A DNA stretch of 64,000 nucleotides, from the NCBI RefSeq assembly GCF_900218015.1, contig NZ_UFQQ01000008.1, forward strand, positions 1-64,000, given 5' to 3'. The notes below the pieces were generated by a model. That model ran no database searches. It was given only the letters and a program-made list of their open reading frames with translations, and was not told where the DNA came from. Shown piece after piece: positions 25,817 through 63,739 of this stretch. Within the stretch, counting starts at the first letter, position 1. Each line of letters begins with the position of its first letter. The position numbers and the translations under genes were made by a program. The DNA is from Rhodopseudomonas pentothenatexigens. Its GTDB lineage: Bacteria; Pseudomonadota; Alphaproteobacteria; Rhizobiales; Xanthobacteraceae.

Positions 25817-27508
25817 ATGCTGTCCAAATTTCGTATGACCATCGGCCGCCGCATCTACTTGCTGATCGGCCTCGGCTTCGCCGGTCTTCTGGGCATCTCG
25901 CTGCTCGATTCGCGCGAATTGGCGAACGGTCTGAAGCAACAGAAGCAGATCGAACTGCAGCACCTCACCGAGCTGGCGATCAGCTTCATCAAGGACGAGT
26001 ACGATGCCGCGCAGCGCGGCGAGATCAGCACCGAGGAGGCGCAGAAGCGCGCCCAGGCGCGGATCTCGAAGCTGCGGTACGGGGGCAACGATTACTTCTT
26101 CATCACCGACATGCAGAGCCGGATGTTGATGCATCCGATCGCCAAGCAGTTGATCGGCCAGGATCAATCGAACGCCAAGGACCCCAACGGCAAGATGCTG
26201 TTCGCCGAAATGGTCGACACCGTTCGCCGCAACGGCAGCGGTTTCGTCGACTACGTCTGGGCCAAGCCGGGCTCCGACCAGCCGTATCCGAAGCTGACCT
26301 ATGTGGCCGGGTTCGGCCCCTGGAACTGGATCGTCGGCACCGGTGTCTATATCGACGACCTCGACGCGCAGACCTGGACTTCGATGCAGCGCTCGTTGAT
26401 CGCGGCGTCACTGGTTCTGCTGATCACCATCATCGCCTCGGTGGTGATGGCGCGGCTGATCACCAAACCGATCCACGCCATGACGCTGACGATGAAGCAT
26501 CTCGCCGGCGGCCGTCTCGACGTCGAGGTGCCCGGCATCGGCCGCCACGACGAGATCGGCGAGATGGCGGGCGCCGTCGAGGTCTTCAAGCTCAACGCGC
26601 TGGAGCGGCAGCGGCTCGAAGCCGAGCAGAAGGAAGCCGAGGCGCGCCTCGCCGCCGAGCGCAAGGCCCATGCGAGCCACCTCGCCGACAGCTTCGAACG
26701 CGCGATCGGTGAGATCGTCGAGACGGTGTCGTCGGCCTCCAACGAGCTGGAAGCCTCGGCCACCACCCTGACGCGGACCGCCGAACAATCGCAGGAATTG
26801 GCGACGGCGGTGGCCGCCGCGTCGGAGGAAGCCTCCACCAACGTCCAGTCGGTGGCGTCGGCGACCGAAGAGATGAGCTCGTCGGTCAACGAGATCAGCC
26901 GCCAGGTCCAAGAATCCGCCCGGATCGCCCACGAGGCGGTCGATCAGGCGCGGCAGACCAACGGCCGGGTCGAAGAACTCGCCAAGGCGGCGTCGCGGAT
27001 CGGCGACGTGGTCGAGCTGATCAGCAACATTGCCGGCCAGACCAACCTGCTGGCGCTCAACGCCACCATCGAGGCGGCTCGTGCCGGAGAAGCCGGCCGC
27101 GGCTTCGCGGTGGTCGCCAGCGAGGTCAAGGCGCTGGCCGAGCAGACCGCCAAGGCCACCGGCGAGATCACCCAGCAGATCAACGGCATTCAGGCGGCCA
27201 CCGACCAGTCGGTGGCGGCCATCAAGGAGATCGGCGAGACCATCGCCAAGATGTCGGAAATCTCCTCGACGATCGCCTCGGCGGTCGAAGAACAGGGCGC
27301 GGCGACCCAAGAGATCTCCCGCAACGTCCAACAGGCCTCGCTCGGCACCCAGCAGGTGTCGTCCAACATCACCGACGTGCAGCGCGGCGCCACGGAGACC
27401 GGCGCGGCCTCGGCCCAGGTGCTGGCGGCGGCGCAGTCGCTGTCCGGCGATTCCACCCGGCTGAAGGTCGAAGTCTCGAACTTCCTGGAGTCGGTCCGCG
27501 CCGCGTAA
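25817..27508 (+). CDS. methyl-accepting chemotaxis protein with single Cache domain
   Basis: A 563-residue transmembrane chemoreceptor. Membrane helix 1 ([16 protein letters not shown]) is followed by a periplasmic sCache_2 domain ([20 protein letters not shown], and [19 protein letters not shown]). Membrane helix 2, a HAMP domain and a cytoplasmic signalling domain follow, with the conserved hairpin tip [20 protein letters not shown]. It signals to CheA/CheW. sCache_2 receptors often bind small carboxylates, but the ligand is unknown here. ATG 25817 has CTGGAG about 10 bases upstream. Confidence 0.93.
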
Positions 27509-27709: not shown

Positions 27710-29305
27710 ATGGCCCATCCCGGAAGTCTCATCCGCCCGGCGGACGACCGCCGGCCCGCGATCGACCCGGCCCAGCGGCCGCAATCGCCGCTGCGCGAAT
27801 TGTTCGCCCCGCTCGACCAACTGCTCGCCTGCGGCGGCGACGCCCGGATCGACCTCGATCCCCTGACCGGCCGCAACGCCTATGGCTGCGGCCCCTGTCC
27901 CGCGCCGGAGCTGCCGAGCTTCTCGTCCTGCACCGCCAGCACGATCTCACCGCGCGGCTACGAGGCCGCCGGCCGCGCCCGCGACGCGCTGATGTCGTCG
28001 GCAATGCTGCACGGCCTGATCGAATGCTTCGACGACCGCGTCGAGGCGATGCGCGACGAACTGAAGACGTTGCTCGGAACGGAGCCGACCGGCGCCGAGA
28101 TCGTGTTCGCCTCGTCGGGCACCGATGCGCAACTCGCGGCGCTGGCGATCAGCCGCGCCCTGCTCGGCGACGACCTCGTCACCGTCGTCATGGCCGCCGA
28201 CCAGACCGGCACCGGTACCGCCTTCACGGCGCACGGCCAGCATTTCGGCGCGCGCAGTGCCGGCGGCATCGCGGCCACGCGCGGCGCGCCGATCGCCGGG
28301 CTCGGCCCGGTGCGCAGCGTCGGGCTGCGGCTGCGCGAAACAGAGGGACGGCTCCGCTCGCCCTCGGCGCTCGACGCCGAGACGCTGGACGTGGTCGAGT
28401 CGCTGGTGGCGCAAGGCGCGCGGGTGATGCTGGAAGCGATGGACTGCTCCAAGCTCGGCCATGCTGCGCCGAGCGACCGCTGCCTCGCCGAGATCGCGGC
28501 GCGCTGGCCCGGCCGGGTGCAGATCGTGATCGACGCCTGTCAGGCGCGGCTCGGCAGCCGCCGTCTCACCGGCTATCTCGACCGCGGCTTCATGGTGCTG
28601 CTGACCGGCTCGAAATATTTCGCCGGCCCGGCGTTCAGCGGTGCGGTGCTGCTGCCGCGGCAGATCGCCGAAGCGGTGGGCACGCTGCGGCGAGTGGCGC
28701 CCGGGCTCGCCGACTATCTGGGCCGCAGCGATTGGCCGCAGCGATGGCGGAGCTTGCGCGAGCAATTCCCCGCGCAGCCGAATTTCGGCCAGTGGCTGCG
28801 CTGGGAAGCAGCGCTCGAGGAAATCCGCGCCTATACGGCGGTGCCGGCGAAAGTCCGCCGCGACGTGGTCCGAAAGCTCGGCGCCGGCCTCGCCGAGCTG
28901 ATCGCCGGCTCGCCGTCGGCACGGCTGCTGCCACCGCAGTCACGCGCCGCCAATGCCGACGAATTCGCGCTGCCGACGATCTTCGCCTTCACGCTGCAGC
29001 GCGGTGATCGCGCCCTGTCGCTCGCCGAATGCCGCGTGCTGCACCGCGCCCTCGCCGACGGCGCCGCGGACCGGCCGCCGTGCCTGCTCGGCCAGCCGGT
29101 CGGCTGGCGCGGCCGCGCCGACGATGCGGTGGCGGCGCTGCGGCTGTGCATCAGCGCCCGCCATGTTGTCGACGTTCACACCGATGCCGGTGCGCGCGAC
29201 CGCATTCTCACCGAGGCCGCAGCCGCGATGGCTACGCTGGAAGCGTTGCTGCTGCAGCCCTCCGTTTCCACCGACAACGCCGCCAAGGAACACCATGTCC
29301 ACTGA
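27710..29305 (+). CDS. unrecognised PLP-dependent (class V aminotransferase-like) enzyme
   Basis: A 531-residue protein of fold-type I appearance. FASSGTDAQLAALAIS resembles the phosphate-binding loop, D275 in VIDACQAR is the expected PLP-ring aspartate, and K302 in LLTGSKYFAGPAFSG is the expected Schiff-base lysine. An unusual CxxC (GCGPCPAP, C60/C63) lies near the N-terminus. I do not recognise a named family. It is the first gene of a three-gene operon, overlapping the ATP-grasp gene by 11 bases, so it probably makes or modifies an amine or amino-acid substrate for the next two enzymes. Confidence 0.78.
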   Translation: MAHPGSLIRPADDRRPAIDPAQRPQSPLRELFAPLDQLLACGGDARIDLDPLTGRNAYGCGPCPAPELPSFSSCTASTISPRGYEAAGRARDALMSSAMLHGLIECFDDRVEAMRDELKTLLGTEPTGAEIVFASSGTDAQLAALAISRALLGDDLVTVVMAADQTGTGTAFTAHGQHFGARSAGGIAATRGAPIAGLGPVRSVGLRLRETEGRLRSPSALDAETLDVVESLVAQGARVMLEAMDCSKLGHAAPSDRCLAEIAARWPGRVQIVIDACQARLGSRRLTGYLDRGFMVLLTGSKYFAGPAFSGAVLLPRQIAEAVGTLRRVAPGLADYLGRSDWPQRWRSLREQFPAQPNFGQWLRWEAALEEIRAYTAVPAKVRRDVVRKLGAGLAELIAGSPSARLLPPQSRAANADEFALPTIFAFTLQRGDRALSLAECRVLHRALADGAADRPPCLLGQPVGWRGRADDAVAALRLCISARHVVDVHTDAGARDRILTEAAAAMATLEALLLQPSVSTDNAAKEHHVH

Positions 29306-30530
29306 TAATTCCGCGCTCGTCGCCGCCGACCGGATCGGCTTCGCCAGCCTGACCAAGCGCGCCTTCGACGGCGAGAACCTGTATCCGCTGTGGCAGGCGC
29401 TGATGGCCAAGGTCGACGCCGGCACCGCGAGCGCCGGCGAACAGCTCGACCTCGCGCTGATCACCCAATTGTTCGGCCACAAGCAGGCCGGCCTGTCGAT
29501 CCAGACCGAGACGCTGAAGCAGCAGCAGTTGTTCCGCTCGCCCTGCGCCAGCGATCAGCCGCGGCTGCGGGTGCTGGCGCTCGCCGCCGACATCGACATG
29601 GGCGGCAACACCCCGATCGAATTCCTGCTGCAGGAGTCCGGCATCGAACTGTCGACGCTGTACGTGGTCGACGGCGTGCCGCTGCCCGATCCGCTGCCGG
29701 CGCACGACGTCGCGATCGTGATCGCCTCGGATTCCGACGAATGCCGCGCGGCGCTGGCGGCGATCGAGGCGCGCGCCGCCGACTGGCCGGCGCCGCTGCT
29801 GAATCCGCCGCATCTGATCCGCCATCTCGACCGCGACAAGCTGTACCGGCTGATCGGCGACGTCGAGGGGCTGGTGATCCCAGCCACGGTTCCGGTCGGC
29901 CGCGACGCGCTGATGGCCGCCGCCAACGGCTCGGCGGCGCTGCCCGAGGTCGCCGGCGGCCTCGACTTCCCGATCATCGTCCGGCCGCGCGGCTCGCACG
30001 CCGGCTTCGGCCTCGCCCGGGTCGCCGACAGCGTCGCGCTGCTCGATTATCTGCGCGACCGCCAGGAGAGCGACTACTTCATCGCCCGCTATGTCGACTA
30101 TGCCAGCGACGACAGCCAGTTCCGCAAATATCGCGTGGTGGTGGTCGACGGCAGACCCTACGCCTGCCACATGGCGATCGCCGACCGTTGGGACATCTGG
30201 TACCTCAACGCCGGCATGGCCGAGGACGAGGTCAAGCGGCTGGAGGAAGCGGCGTTCTTCCACACCTTCGATTTCGGTTTCGCACTGCGCCACAAGACCG
30301 CGCTCGACGGCATGATCGCGCGGATCGGTCTCGATTACTTCACCATCGATTGCGCCCAGATGCCGAGCGGCGACCTGTTGGTGTTCGAGATCGACAACAC
30401 CTCTGTGGTGCACGACATGGACAGCCCGCAGCTCTATCCCTACAAGCCGCCGCAGATGCACAAGATCTTCGACGCCTTCGCGTCGATGCTGGAGCGGCGC
30501 GTCGGATCCCGCCTGACGAGCGTGGCGTGA
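29295..30530 (+). CDS. ATP-grasp domain protein (RimK-like)
   Basis: A 411-residue cytosolic protein. An N-terminal helical, TPR-like part (about 1-80) precedes a Rossmann-like pre-ATP-grasp part (LRVLALAADIDMGGNTPIEF) and a C-terminal ATP-grasp domain. The ATP-grasp domain has DFPIIVRPRGSHAGFGL, KYRVVVVDGRPYACHMAI and a metal-binding LLVFEIDNTSVVHDMDS. ATP-grasp ligases join a carboxylate to an amine. The partners are unknown. The start overlaps the end of the PLP gene, and the stop overlaps the decarboxylase GTG start by 4 bases. Confidence 0.82.
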   Translation: MSTDNSALVAADRIGFASLTKRAFDGENLYPLWQALMAKVDAGTASAGEQLDLALITQLFGHKQAGLSIQTETLKQQQLFRSPCASDQPRLRVLALAADIDMGGNTPIEFLLQESGIELSTLYVVDGVPLPDPLPAHDVAIVIASDSDECRAALAAIEARAADWPAPLLNPPHLIRHLDRDKLYRLIGDVEGLVIPATVPVGRDALMAAANGSAALPEVAGGLDFPIIVRPRGSHAGFGLARVADSVALLDYLRDRQESDYFIARYVDYASDDSQFRKYRVVVVDGRPYACHMAIADRWDIWYLNAGMAEDEVKRLEEAAFFHTFDFGFALRHKTALDGMIARIGLDYFTIDCAQMPSGDLLVFEIDNTSVVHDMDSPQLYPYKPPQMHKIFDAFASMLERRVGSRLTSVA

Positions 30531-31987
30531 GCGACGCGGTCCGCGCCGGCGCGAATGCCGGCGCAACCAGCCTCGATCCCGACGATTGGGACGCGCTGCG
30601 CGCCGACGCGCACCACATGCTCGACGACATGCTGGACTACCTCGCCGGCGTGCGCGACCGCCCGGTGTGGCAGCCGATCCCGCCGAAGGTCCGCGCCGGC
30701 TTCGCCGAACCGCTGCCGCGCGGCGGCACGCCGCTGCCCGACGTCTATCGCCGCTTCACCGAGGACATCGCGCCCTACGCCACCGGCAACGTCCACCCCG
30801 GCTTCATGGGCTGGGTGCATGGCGGCGGCACCGCGGTCGGCATGCTGGCCGAGATGCTGGCAGCGGGGCTCAACGCCAATTGCGGCGGCCGCGATCACAT
30901 CGGCATCGAAGTCGAACGCCAGATCGTGCGCTGGCTGCGTGAACTGTTCGGCTTTCCGCAAACAGCCAGCGGCGTGTTCGTCACCGGCTCGTCGATGGCC
31001 AACTTCATGGCGCTGCTGGTGGCGCGCACCGCGGCGGTCGGTCCGCAGGTGCGCGAGGGCGGCCTGCCGGGCGAACGGCTCACGGCTTACGCGTCCGCAG
31101 CCGCGCACGGCTGCGTGGTGCAGGCCGCCGATCTCGCCGGCCTCGGCCGCGGCGCGCTGCGGCGGATTCCGTTCGGCAAGGATCACCGCATCGATCTGGC
31201 GGCGCTGAAGCGGCGGATCGCCGAGGATCGCGCCGCCGGGTGCCTGCCGTTCCTGGTGACCGGATCGGCCGGCACCGTCGATGTCGGCGCGATCGACGAT
31301 CTGGCGGCGCTCGCCGCGCTGTGCCGCGACGAAGGGCTGTGGTTTCACGTCGACGGCGCCTACGGCGCTCTCGGCATGCTGTCCGACGAGATCGCGCCGA
31401 AGCTGAAGGGACTGTCGGAGGCGAATTCGATCGCGCTCGATTTCCACAAATGGGGCCAGGTCAATTACGACGCCGGCTTCCTGATCGTGCGCGACGGCGA
31501 GCAGCATCGCGACACGTTTGCGGCGCCGGCCGCTTACTTACGGCGCGAAACCCGCGGGCTGGCCGGCGGCTCGCCGTGGCCGTGCGACTACGGCCCCGAT
31601 CTGTCGCGCGGCTTCCGCGCGCTGAAGACCTGGTTCACGCTGAAGACCTTCGGCGCCGACCGCATGGGGGCGATGATCGCCCACACCTGCAAGGTGGCGC
31701 GCCATCTCGAAGCCCGCGTCGCGCGTGAGCCGGAGCTCGAGGTGCTGGCACCGGTGACGCTGAACATCGTCTGCTTCCGCTATCGCGCCGCACCGGACGT
31801 GGTCGACGCGCTCAACGCCGAGATCGTCGCCGACCTCCACGAATCCGGGATCGCCGCGCCGTCCTCGACCACGATCGACGGCGCCTTGGCGATCCGCGCC
31901 GCGATCGTCAACCACCGCACGACGTTTGCGGATGTCGACCGGATGGTCGATGCGGCGATGAAATTCGGAGCGGAGCGGGTAGGCTGA
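30527..31987 (+). CDS. PLP-dependent group II decarboxylase
   Basis: A 486-residue enzyme of the aromatic-L-amino-acid/glutamate decarboxylase family. Motifs are FVTGSSMANFMALLVAR, the PLP-ring Asp in HVDGAYGALG (D276) and the Schiff-base lysine K308 in ALDFHKWGQVNYDAGF. It should remove the alpha-carboxyl of an amino acid to give an amine. The substrate is not evident. It starts at GTG 30527, overlapping the ATP-grasp stop (GTGA), and is last in the three-gene operon. A decayed family A repeat follows. Confidence 0.9.
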   Translation: MSDAVRAGANAGATSLDPDDWDALRADAHHMLDDMLDYLAGVRDRPVWQPIPPKVRAGFAEPLPRGGTPLPDVYRRFTEDIAPYATGNVHPGFMGWVHGGGTAVGMLAEMLAAGLNANCGGRDHIGIEVERQIVRWLRELFGFPQTASGVFVTGSSMANFMALLVARTAAVGPQVREGGLPGERLTAYASAAAHGCVVQAADLAGLGRGALRRIPFGKDHRIDLAALKRRIAEDRAAGCLPFLVTGSAGTVDVGAIDDLAALAALCRDEGLWFHVDGAYGALGMLSDEIAPKLKGLSEANSIALDFHKWGQVNYDAGFLIVRDGEQHRDTFAAPAAYLRRETRGLAGGSPWPCDYGPDLSRGFRALKTWFTLKTFGADRMGAMIAHTCKVARHLEARVAREPELEVLAPVTLNIVCFRYRAAPDVVDALNAEIVADLHESGIAAPSSTTIDGALAIRAAIVNHRTTFADVDRMVDAAMKFGAERVG

Positions 31988-61917: not shown

Positions 61918-63240
61918 TCAGGCCGCGCGCTGGGCCAGCATGTCGGCGCGGACCCGGCCGAGATAGTCGCGAATCCGGTGCGCCAGCGTCTCCGACTGCG
62001 ACGACAGATGGGTCGAGGCGGTCATCGTCGAGGCGGCGGATTGCTCGGTGTCGCGGGCACTGGCGGTCACCGCCTGGATGCTGCCGGCGATGTCGCTGAC
62101 CACGTCGTAGGCCTGCTCGATGTTCTTGGCGATGTCGGCGGTGGCGGCGGTTTGCGCTTCGGCGGCGCCAGCGACCGCCGCGGTGATGTCGTCGACCTCG
62201 GACATCACCGTGCCGATCTCGCCGATCGACCGGCTGACGAGATCGGCGGCGCTGTGGACGTGCTCGACCTGATCCTCGATCTCGCCGGTGAATTTGGCGG
62301 TCTGTTCGGCCAGCGCCTTCACCTCGGCGGCGACCACCGCGAAACCGCGACCGGCCTCGCCGGCGCGCGCCGCCTCGATGGTGGCGTTGAGCGCCAGCAG
62401 ATTGGTTTGGCCGGCGATCACTTCGATCGACTTCACCACCTCGGCGATCCGCTCGGCGACGCTGCGCAGGCTGGCGACGTTGGCGGAGGCGTCCGACACC
62501 CGGCTCACCGCGCGGCCGACCACTTCGGCGGAGCGGCCGATCTCGGCGCCGACCTCGCGGGCGCTGGCCGACAATTCGGTGGTGGCGGCGGCGACGCTGC
62601 GCATGTTGTTGCTGGCCTGCTCCGCGGCTGCCGCGACGCTGGTGAGGCGTTCGCGGGTGAGCGAGGCGCCGCTGGTCAGGCTGCCGGCGGTGTCGCGCAT
62701 GCCGCGGGAATCCTCGTCGAGCGACGACACCACGTCGGTCACCGCGGATTCGAGCTGCGCCGCCTGCTGGGCGAAACTGTCGATCCGCGATTCGATGCTG
62801 TCGGTGGCGGCATTGATGGTCTTGGCACCGCGTAGCAGCGCGCCGTGCAGGCCCCCGGGCAAAATGCGGCGGAAGTAACGCCGGTGCTGCACCGCGTCCA
62901 TGGCGGCGGTGGCCTCGCGCACGAAGGCATCGCAGCCGTCGATCACGTCGTTGACGGCGCGCAGCATGTCGCCGGTGCGGCCGTTGTCGGGGATATGCAG
63001 AATGCGCGCCTCGAAGTCGCCGGCGGCGATCCTCTGGCAGACGTCGCGCGCCTGGCCGATCAGCCGGGTGGTCTGCACCATCCTGTACAGCGCGACGCAC
63101 GTCGCCAGGATCGCGAAGGCCTGGATCGTCATTGCCGCGGCGCGATAGTCCAGCGCTTCCAACGCGAGCGCGATCGACGACGCCACGATGATGACGGCGA
63201 TGTTAAGCTGCGCTTTGGAGAGCGAACATAAGTTCGTCAT
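61918..63240 (-). CDS. methyl-accepting chemotaxis protein without periplasmic domain
   Basis: A 440-residue signalling protein. Two closely spaced membrane helices ([39 protein letters not shown]) are joined by a very short loop, then HAMP-like and cytoplasmic signalling domains with [20 protein letters not shown]. No sensing domain lies outside the membrane. It overlaps the upstream PAS gene by 38 bases, so the pair probably forms a split Aer-like receptor for redox or energy state. Start ATG 63240; the open frame to 63552 is not needed. Confidence 0.9.
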
Positions 63241-63739
63241 AGCTGACCTTCTTCGAGGCGACGAAATCGGTGAGCGCCTTGAGGCCGGCCTCGACCGCCT
63301 GCTTGCCGTTGGCGCAGCTCTGCTCGACCCGCAGCACCTCGGCATAGAGCGGCGCGATCGCGCCCGCGACCACGCTCGGATCCGGGGTGCGGCGATTGGA
63401 GTGATAGGCGACGATGTTGCCGTTTGCGTCGAACGACGGCGTGATGTGGGCGAACACCCAATAATGGTCGCCGCTGCGCGCCATGTTCTTGACGTAGCCG
63501 AAGATCTCGCGGCCCGCCGCGATCGTGTCCCACACCAGACGGAACACTGCACGCGGCATGTCGGGATGGCGGATGATGCTGTGCGGCTGACCGAGCAGTT
63601 CCGCCTCGCTGTAGCCGGCGATGTGACAGAAGGTGCGGTTGGCGTAGGTGATGCGGCCTTTCAGATCGGTCTTGGACACGATCAGTTCGCCTGCCGGGAA
63701 GAAGACTTCCTTGCCGGTCGGGCGGATTTGGACAACCAT
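63203..63739 (-). CDS. PAS-domain sensor protein (Aer N-terminal half-like)
   Basis: A 178-residue cytosolic protein. The PAS core runs [65 protein letters not shown] and [15 protein letters not shown], the Aer/TIGR00229 pattern with the flavin-pocket Trp. A helical C-terminus follows. FAD binding is inferred from the Aer likeness. It overlaps the chemoreceptor gene by 38 bases. An ATG start at 63739 has AAGGAG upstream. Confidence 0.9.

Follow-up and report, generated by a model that had tools for sequence, protein, structure and literature searches.

The window analysed here, a stretch of 64,000 nucleotides from Rhodopseudomonas pentothenatexigens (contig NZ_UFQQ01000008.1, positions 1 to 64,000), carries three closely packed enzyme genes, called g1, g2 and g3 below, which encode a pyridoxal 5'-phosphate (PLP) enzyme, an ATP-grasp ligase and a PLP-dependent decarboxylase (Table 1). 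An original prediction, made from the letters alone, had singled them out as an operon with a plausible small-molecule product; the coordinates, strand and overlaps it gave (11 bp between g1 and g2, 4 bp between g2 and g3, all on the forward strand) are exact. No description of such a PLP/PLP/ATP-grasp trio was found in the open papers of PubMed Central (PMC).

Table 1. The three genes and the chemoreceptor gene beside them in the window
Feature	Position	Strand	Product	Assignment
g1	27710..29305	+	531 aa	fold-type-I (class V-like) PLP enzyme; PLP residues D275, K302
g2	29295..30530	+	411 aa, ATG start	ATP-grasp ligase, probably carboxylate-amine; four-helix N-terminal part
g3	30527..31987	+	486 aa, GTG start	group II PLP-dependent amino-acid decarboxylase; K308, D276, H194, loop Tyr337, Arg122
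Chemoreceptor gene	26000-27508	+		Cache-domain chemoreceptor (methyl-accepting chemotaxis protein, MCP), by Pfam

With a threshold of E 0.001, g1 and g2 find no counterpart among the Pfam and NCBIfam models, an outcome that leaves the original prediction standing, and by sequence the best PDB match of either has an E no lower than 0.12; PF00266, the class V aminotransferase profile, matches neither the window's g1 nor two distant relatives of it. The AlphaFold2 model of g1, built from a 32-row alignment (predicted local distance difference test, pLDDT, 86.0; predicted template modelling score, pTM, 0.88), is placed by Foldseek nearest to the carbon sulfoxide lyase 8iry, which we take to be EgtE-type, and to PvdN and SufS, with E about 1e-12, aromatic decarboxylases also being listed. 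Fold and PLP motifs are thus shared with the class V enzymes, but identity to these three is only 14-18%. D275 and K302 are invariant in a 24-row alignment and in the 32-row one, and the motifs SGT, D-x-x-Q and TGSK are kept among the relatives aligned. By its modelled fold, then, g1 is a fold-type-I PLP enzyme, class V-like as had been proposed and outside any named family model. The description "transaminase-type" is unproven, g1 lying nearest in fold to the lyase, to PvdN and to cysteine desulfurases. One detail of the prediction, an "odd N-terminal CxxC" (C60-x-x-C63), does not stand up: C60 is invariant in 24 near relatives, and missing in some distant ones, but C63 varies, and a metal-binding CxxC was dropped for that reason. 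Two Rhodopseudomonas records have g1 split into two frames (L009:6445-8055 and G007:C22:36432-37995; G and L labels are our own for genomes and loci), and in the first of them g2 and g3 still read through.

The class of g2 is read from its fold. Its AlphaFold2 model, from a 39-row alignment (pLDDT 91.4, pTM 0.89), begins with four helices, the helical N-terminal part that had been foreseen, and is matched by Foldseek with probability 1.00 to RimK, ArgX, LysX, Ddl and ITPK (the inositol-phosphate kinase ITPK1). Of the residues considered for the metal and ATP site, D352 and E365 are invariant in the 39 rows and D367/N368 are kept in at least 90% of them, D367 being missing in some distant relatives. 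The protein is classed as ATP-grasp by fold only, and is probably a carboxylate-amine ligase; it shares the fold of the RimK/LysX/ArgX/Ddl ligases, but identity is just 9-20% among the 50 matches listed, and no Pfam profile lies above its cut-off. A TPR domain in the window's g2 was considered and rejected, there being no Pfam TPR match even at E 1; longer relatives in L045 and L136 do carry TPRs. Some further relatives deserve mention. One on a Rhizobium tumorigenes plasmid (L184:7950-9662) is longer at the C-terminal end by some 150 aa; this addition, without a Pfam match, to our eye reads like a cysteine peptidase and would presumably fit a ligase/amidase pair. Another, on a Paraburkholderia plasmid (L183:7941-10306), overlaps by 4 bp a serC-annotated gene standing in the place of g1, which we assume to encode another class V PLP enzyme. 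A small contig (L138, G068:C51) has three TPR-like open reading frames (ORFs) in succession, two of which match the g2 profile.

The family of g3 is plain: it matches PF00282 with 202.9 bits (cut-off 27; E 8.6e-60), and K308 is where the prediction of a group II decarboxylase had put it. K308, D276, H194 and Y337, which we take to be the PLP lysine, its aspartate, the stacking histidine and the catalytic-loop tyrosine, are conserved across 20 diverse rows, and therefore g3 should be a true decarboxylase. The nearest PDB chains are 4obu, 7xin, 2qma and 5o5c. As a member of the group that includes 4obu, DOPA decarboxylase, diaminobutyrate decarboxylase and the desferrioxamine-type 5o5c, it keeps the catalytic residues, but it differs from the named enzymes in two respects. 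It touches five NCBIfam equivalogs, each far below its cut-off (diaminobutyrate decarboxylase, 182.9 bits against 900; PanP, 108.8 against 606.1; MfnA, 79.5 against 299.4), and it has an Arg122, conserved in the same 20 rows within a GGR(D/N)(H/Q) motif. By alignment we would place Arg122 near the substrate loop at the dimer interface, a position that hints, weakly, at an acidic substrate.

The three genes belong together well beyond Rhodopseudomonas. With the window's own genome counted each time, g1 is carried by 15 of 16 genomes of the genus; in wider samples it occurs in 14 of 297 genomes for the order, 7 of 387 for the class and 24 of 397 for the phylum. The surroundings of g1 were read in 38 genomes across the phylum, in stretches of 3.7 to 26 kb, and 25 of these loci have all three genes within 4 kb; a 26th (G566) has a g2-like gene about 5 kb off. 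The gene order changes among g1-g2-g3, g3-g2-g1, g2-g1-g3 and g2-g3-g1, and two fusions occur, g1 with g2 in a single ORF of 953 aa in R. rhenobacensis (L019) and g3 with g2 in one of 884 aa in G078 (L128). Changing orders and fusions together argue that the genes function as a unit centred on g2, and so for an amide-forming pathway. Incomplete sets are also found: g1 with g3 but no g2 in G364 and G718, g1 with g2 only in G1037 and G1016, g1 alone at the place read in G652, G987 and G297, and g2 with g3 but no g1 in G027, G142 and G315. Where g2 is lacking, another ATP-grasp gene adjoins g1 in 6 of the 10 loci; it is Ddl-like in four loci of one family, a protein of the ATPgrasp_ST ("sugar-transfer associated") type in G610 and a GARS/RimK plus acylphosphatase protein in G718. 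Evidently g1 has other partners too. The small amide pathway that had been thought plausible is thus backed by both fusions and by these substitute ligases, and the expectation that the trio would be conserved as a unit in relatives is borne out by the neighbourhood survey. Within Rhodopseudomonas all three genes are under purifying selection, with ratios of nonsynonymous to synonymous substitution (dN/dS) of 0.11-0.25 against one genome and 0.24-0.49 against another; such low values, together with joint recurrence across the phylum, mark the trio as more than chance.

The most informative clue to the use of the product is invisible from the window's sequence alone, and lies in the flagellar filament loci of relatives. 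Among named loci, the best 80 of 124 matches to g2 gave 78 loci, of which 70, mostly of Bradyrhizobium, have flagellar genes, the remaining 8 being Rhodopseudomonas. In 51 of the 70 the genes for FlgE, FlgK, a FlgL-like protein and a protein we call GTx are followed on one strand by g1, g2 and g3, and 4 more have this order without GTx between; FlbT and flagellin usually come next. One such locus was checked by Pfam, which confirmed the FlgE-type protein, FlgK, flagellin and FlbT; for its FlgL-like protein no profile exceeded the cut-off, and the name goes by position and N-terminal sequence. GTx has no Pfam, NCBIfam or PDB match, and its label as a glycosyltransferase is a reading from sequence. 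Another 11 loci among the 70 have g2 but lack g1, g3 or both in the stretch read, which a contig end explains in some.

The pattern recurs in two lineages that are distant from Bradyrhizobium. In G755, of the same phylum, fliC-flaG-fliD-fliS is followed on one strand by g3-g2-g1, with flagellin, FlaG, FliD and FliS identified by Pfam; in G064, of the same class, flagellin, FlbT and FlaF-like genes lie between g1 and g2-g3. In a further locus (L045:2694-6553) a flagellin gene is directly followed by a gene for a TPR plus ATP-grasp protein and one for an FkbH-domain protein, then by a g2 copy and flbT, so that two ATP-grasp genes of the g2 family stand between flagellin and flbT; g1 and g3 are both absent from that stretch. 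In G610 flhA lies 10 kb away from g1, and FlhA is found in 23 of 25 hand-chosen carriers as against 228 of 387 class genomes.

In the window itself the trio is flanked by the chemoreceptor gene on one side and a PPK2 gene on the other. Among named loci, those of R. palustris XCP and Rhodopseudomonas sp. BR0M22 come closest, with 94% identity in g2 (records of the same genome having possibly been left out), and a promoter and terminator search around the operon gave nothing exceeding shuffled sequence. Of the 8 Rhodopseudomonas loci from the g2 search, 7 share the MCP neighbour; a role in chemotaxis by way of this neighbour was rejected, as the Rhodopseudomonas genomes G001 and G003 carry the trio elsewhere without an MCP gene. 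A second MCP-like ORF, read from the sequence, lies at 61918-63552 on the minus strand of the window. A flagellin locus of this genome (L139/L140, G000:C42:212000-246000) has genes for an FlgE-type protein, FlgK, very long flagellins, an flbT-like protein and FlaF, along with sugar-nucleotide genes, an FkbM-type methyltransferase gene and, on the minus strand at L140:2257-4404, a gene for a TPR plus GT41 protein; the trio is absent from it.

We suggest, tentatively and with a confidence that stops a little short of even, that the trio works as an amide-forming module and that what it makes serves to decorate the flagellar filament, in several lineages and, to judge by orthology, probably in Rhodopseudomonas as well. 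In this scheme g3 would decarboxylate an amino acid to an amine, g1 would prepare or modify a partner amino acid, and g2 would spend ATP to join a carboxylate to an amine, giving a small amide or peptide-like group; where the genes have entered a filament locus, that group may cap the flagellin glycan or flagellin itself. The substrates and the order of the steps are our conjecture, as is attachment to the filament, and the Rhodopseudomonas copy next to the chemoreceptor gene would presumably serve the same role. If this is right, a function is at hand for genes of the Bradyrhizobium flagellar filament locus; the proposal also offers a role that can be tested for two families which no Pfam or NCBIfam model matches, in genera open to culture and manipulation.

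Several observations weigh against a flagellar use. By the references used, 33 of the 38 g1 contexts, the window's included, have no flagellar gene, which leaves three of the genus Bradyrhizobium and those of G064 and G755; the 70 named flagellar loci come in essence from a single clade. Of 39 genomes in the G064 family 7 have g1, and none of the six other contexts read there is flagellar; G064 itself (L123, G064:C50) has no FlhA match, despite its flagellin, flbT and flaF-like genes and a reported completeness of 100%. The association of FlhA with the trio is weak. In the class sample, where the background is 228 of 387 and shared ancestry is left uncorrected, FlhA occurs in 11 of 12 strong g2 carriers (p = 0.018, with a threshold chosen afterwards), but the excess is not significant for all g2 matches (18/25, p = 0.21) or for g1 (6/7, p = 0.25).

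Much of the same evidence would suit a different explanation, which we regard as a serious if less than probable one, namely that the trio yields a free metabolite, a small amide or dipeptide-like compound (a signal, chelator or antimetabolite), and came to its flagellar places by chance insertion and descent. The majority of contexts have nothing to do with flagella and vary from one neighbour to the next. An MFS gene precedes g1 in G1012 and G1013 and g2 in G027, and an EamA gene precedes g3 in G752, all on the same strand and identified by Pfam; transporter genes adjoining in three lineages would suit a diffusible product, and in G779 a TetR gene adjoins. The trio is also found on named plasmids of Rhizobium tumorigenes and R. 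rhododendri, while other Rhizobium plasmids have g1 with no recognised ATP-grasp gene alongside; 33 plasmid records have g1 and 7 have g2, and among the 20 g1 records listed 3 show g2 next to g1. On the Sinorhizobium medicae plasmid pWSM1115_3 (L185/L188) a relative of g1 is the last gene of a large non-ribosomal peptide synthetase (NRPS) operon, joined to it by a 4-bp overlap; beyond the cluster lie nitroreductase and phosphopantetheinyl transferase genes. The g1 of Neorhizobium adjoins genes for a D-aminopeptidase and a D-alanine aminotransferase, and in Cupriavidus a g2 relative lies among metal-resistance genes without g1 or g3. The NRPS, Neorhizobium and Cupriavidus contexts indicate that chemistry of this type serves other products too. 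Against a free product, however, the transporters vary by lineage, and neither the window nor Bradyrhizobium L152 has a recognised one next to the trio. In two lineages late flagellar genes run on into the trio without a change of strand, and there is a third case in a flagellin locus. The chance of three flagellar contexts among 21 is roughly 0.001-0.008, where both the 21 and the 1-2% of a genome taken up by flagellar DNA are estimates. Should the flagellar proposal prove wrong, the trio would still be a widely spread amide pathway, as yet unassigned.

It is unlikely, in our judgement, that the trio puts an amide-linked amino-acid group on surface glycans in general (lipopolysaccharide, capsule or flagellin glycan), with flagellin as one target among several. 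The glycosyltransferase-like GTx gene, which separates g1 from the FlgL-like gene in 51 loci, would fit, with the reservation as to its label given above, as would the sugar-nucleotide genes near g1 of G297, the pairing of g1 with the "sugar-transfer associated" ligase in G610 and an NTP-transferase gene near g1 in G291; but no glycan gene was recognised beside the window's trio, and few in the other contexts, where most neighbours carried no annotation. Quite improbable, we think, is direct placement of the amine-derived amide on flagellin with no sugar between, g2 being a protein-modifying ligase that recognises flagellin; its TPR-bearing relatives may then act likewise, and this, if true, would give Pseudomonadota a new class of modification of the flagellar filament. 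A cofactor-type pathway like that of methanofuran, where the tyrosine decarboxylase MfnA and the ATP-grasp enzyme MfnD supply the same two chemistries, has a tyrosyl-tRNA synthetase gene adjoining the trio in its favour (L166, by Pfam; L168, by N-terminal sequence), but is very improbable given the low MfnA score of g3 and the patchy presence of g1 in the class, which ill suits a cofactor.

Decoration of the filament by a small amide has its closest precedent in Clostridium difficile, where an amino sugar on type B flagellin is capped with taurine, alanine and glycine (PMC5207245, PMC5207246). An ATP-grasp gene of that locus, CDR20291_0245, lies downstream of fliC, and because the flagellin glycans of its mutants stop at the trisaccharide the prediction is that it contributes to making the peptidylamido part, the amide-linked taurine-Ala-Gly cap (PMC5207246). 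The likeness does not extend to the companions: in the parts of these accounts available to us, those named for CDR20291_0244-0247 are FemAB-like, cyclodeaminase and FdtB-like proteins, with no PLP decarboxylase or g1 relative among them, and the ligase there is assigned to Pfam 13535, to which g2 has no match. The Shewanella flagellin modification operon sfmABCDE likewise ends in a gene for a protein with an ATP-grasp domain, sfmE, whose loss shifts the flagellin mass (PMC3765264). Unlike the trio, it sets that gene beside NeuB-like, thiamine pyrophosphate-enzyme, reductase and methyltransferase genes, and the portion of the report available names no PLP enzyme. ATP-grasp genes in flagellin loci are, then, already known; a PLP/PLP/ATP-grasp trio is not described in the papers found, and if its flagellar use is as we propose, amide-capped flagellin like that of C. 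difficile extends to soil and phototrophic Pseudomonadota.

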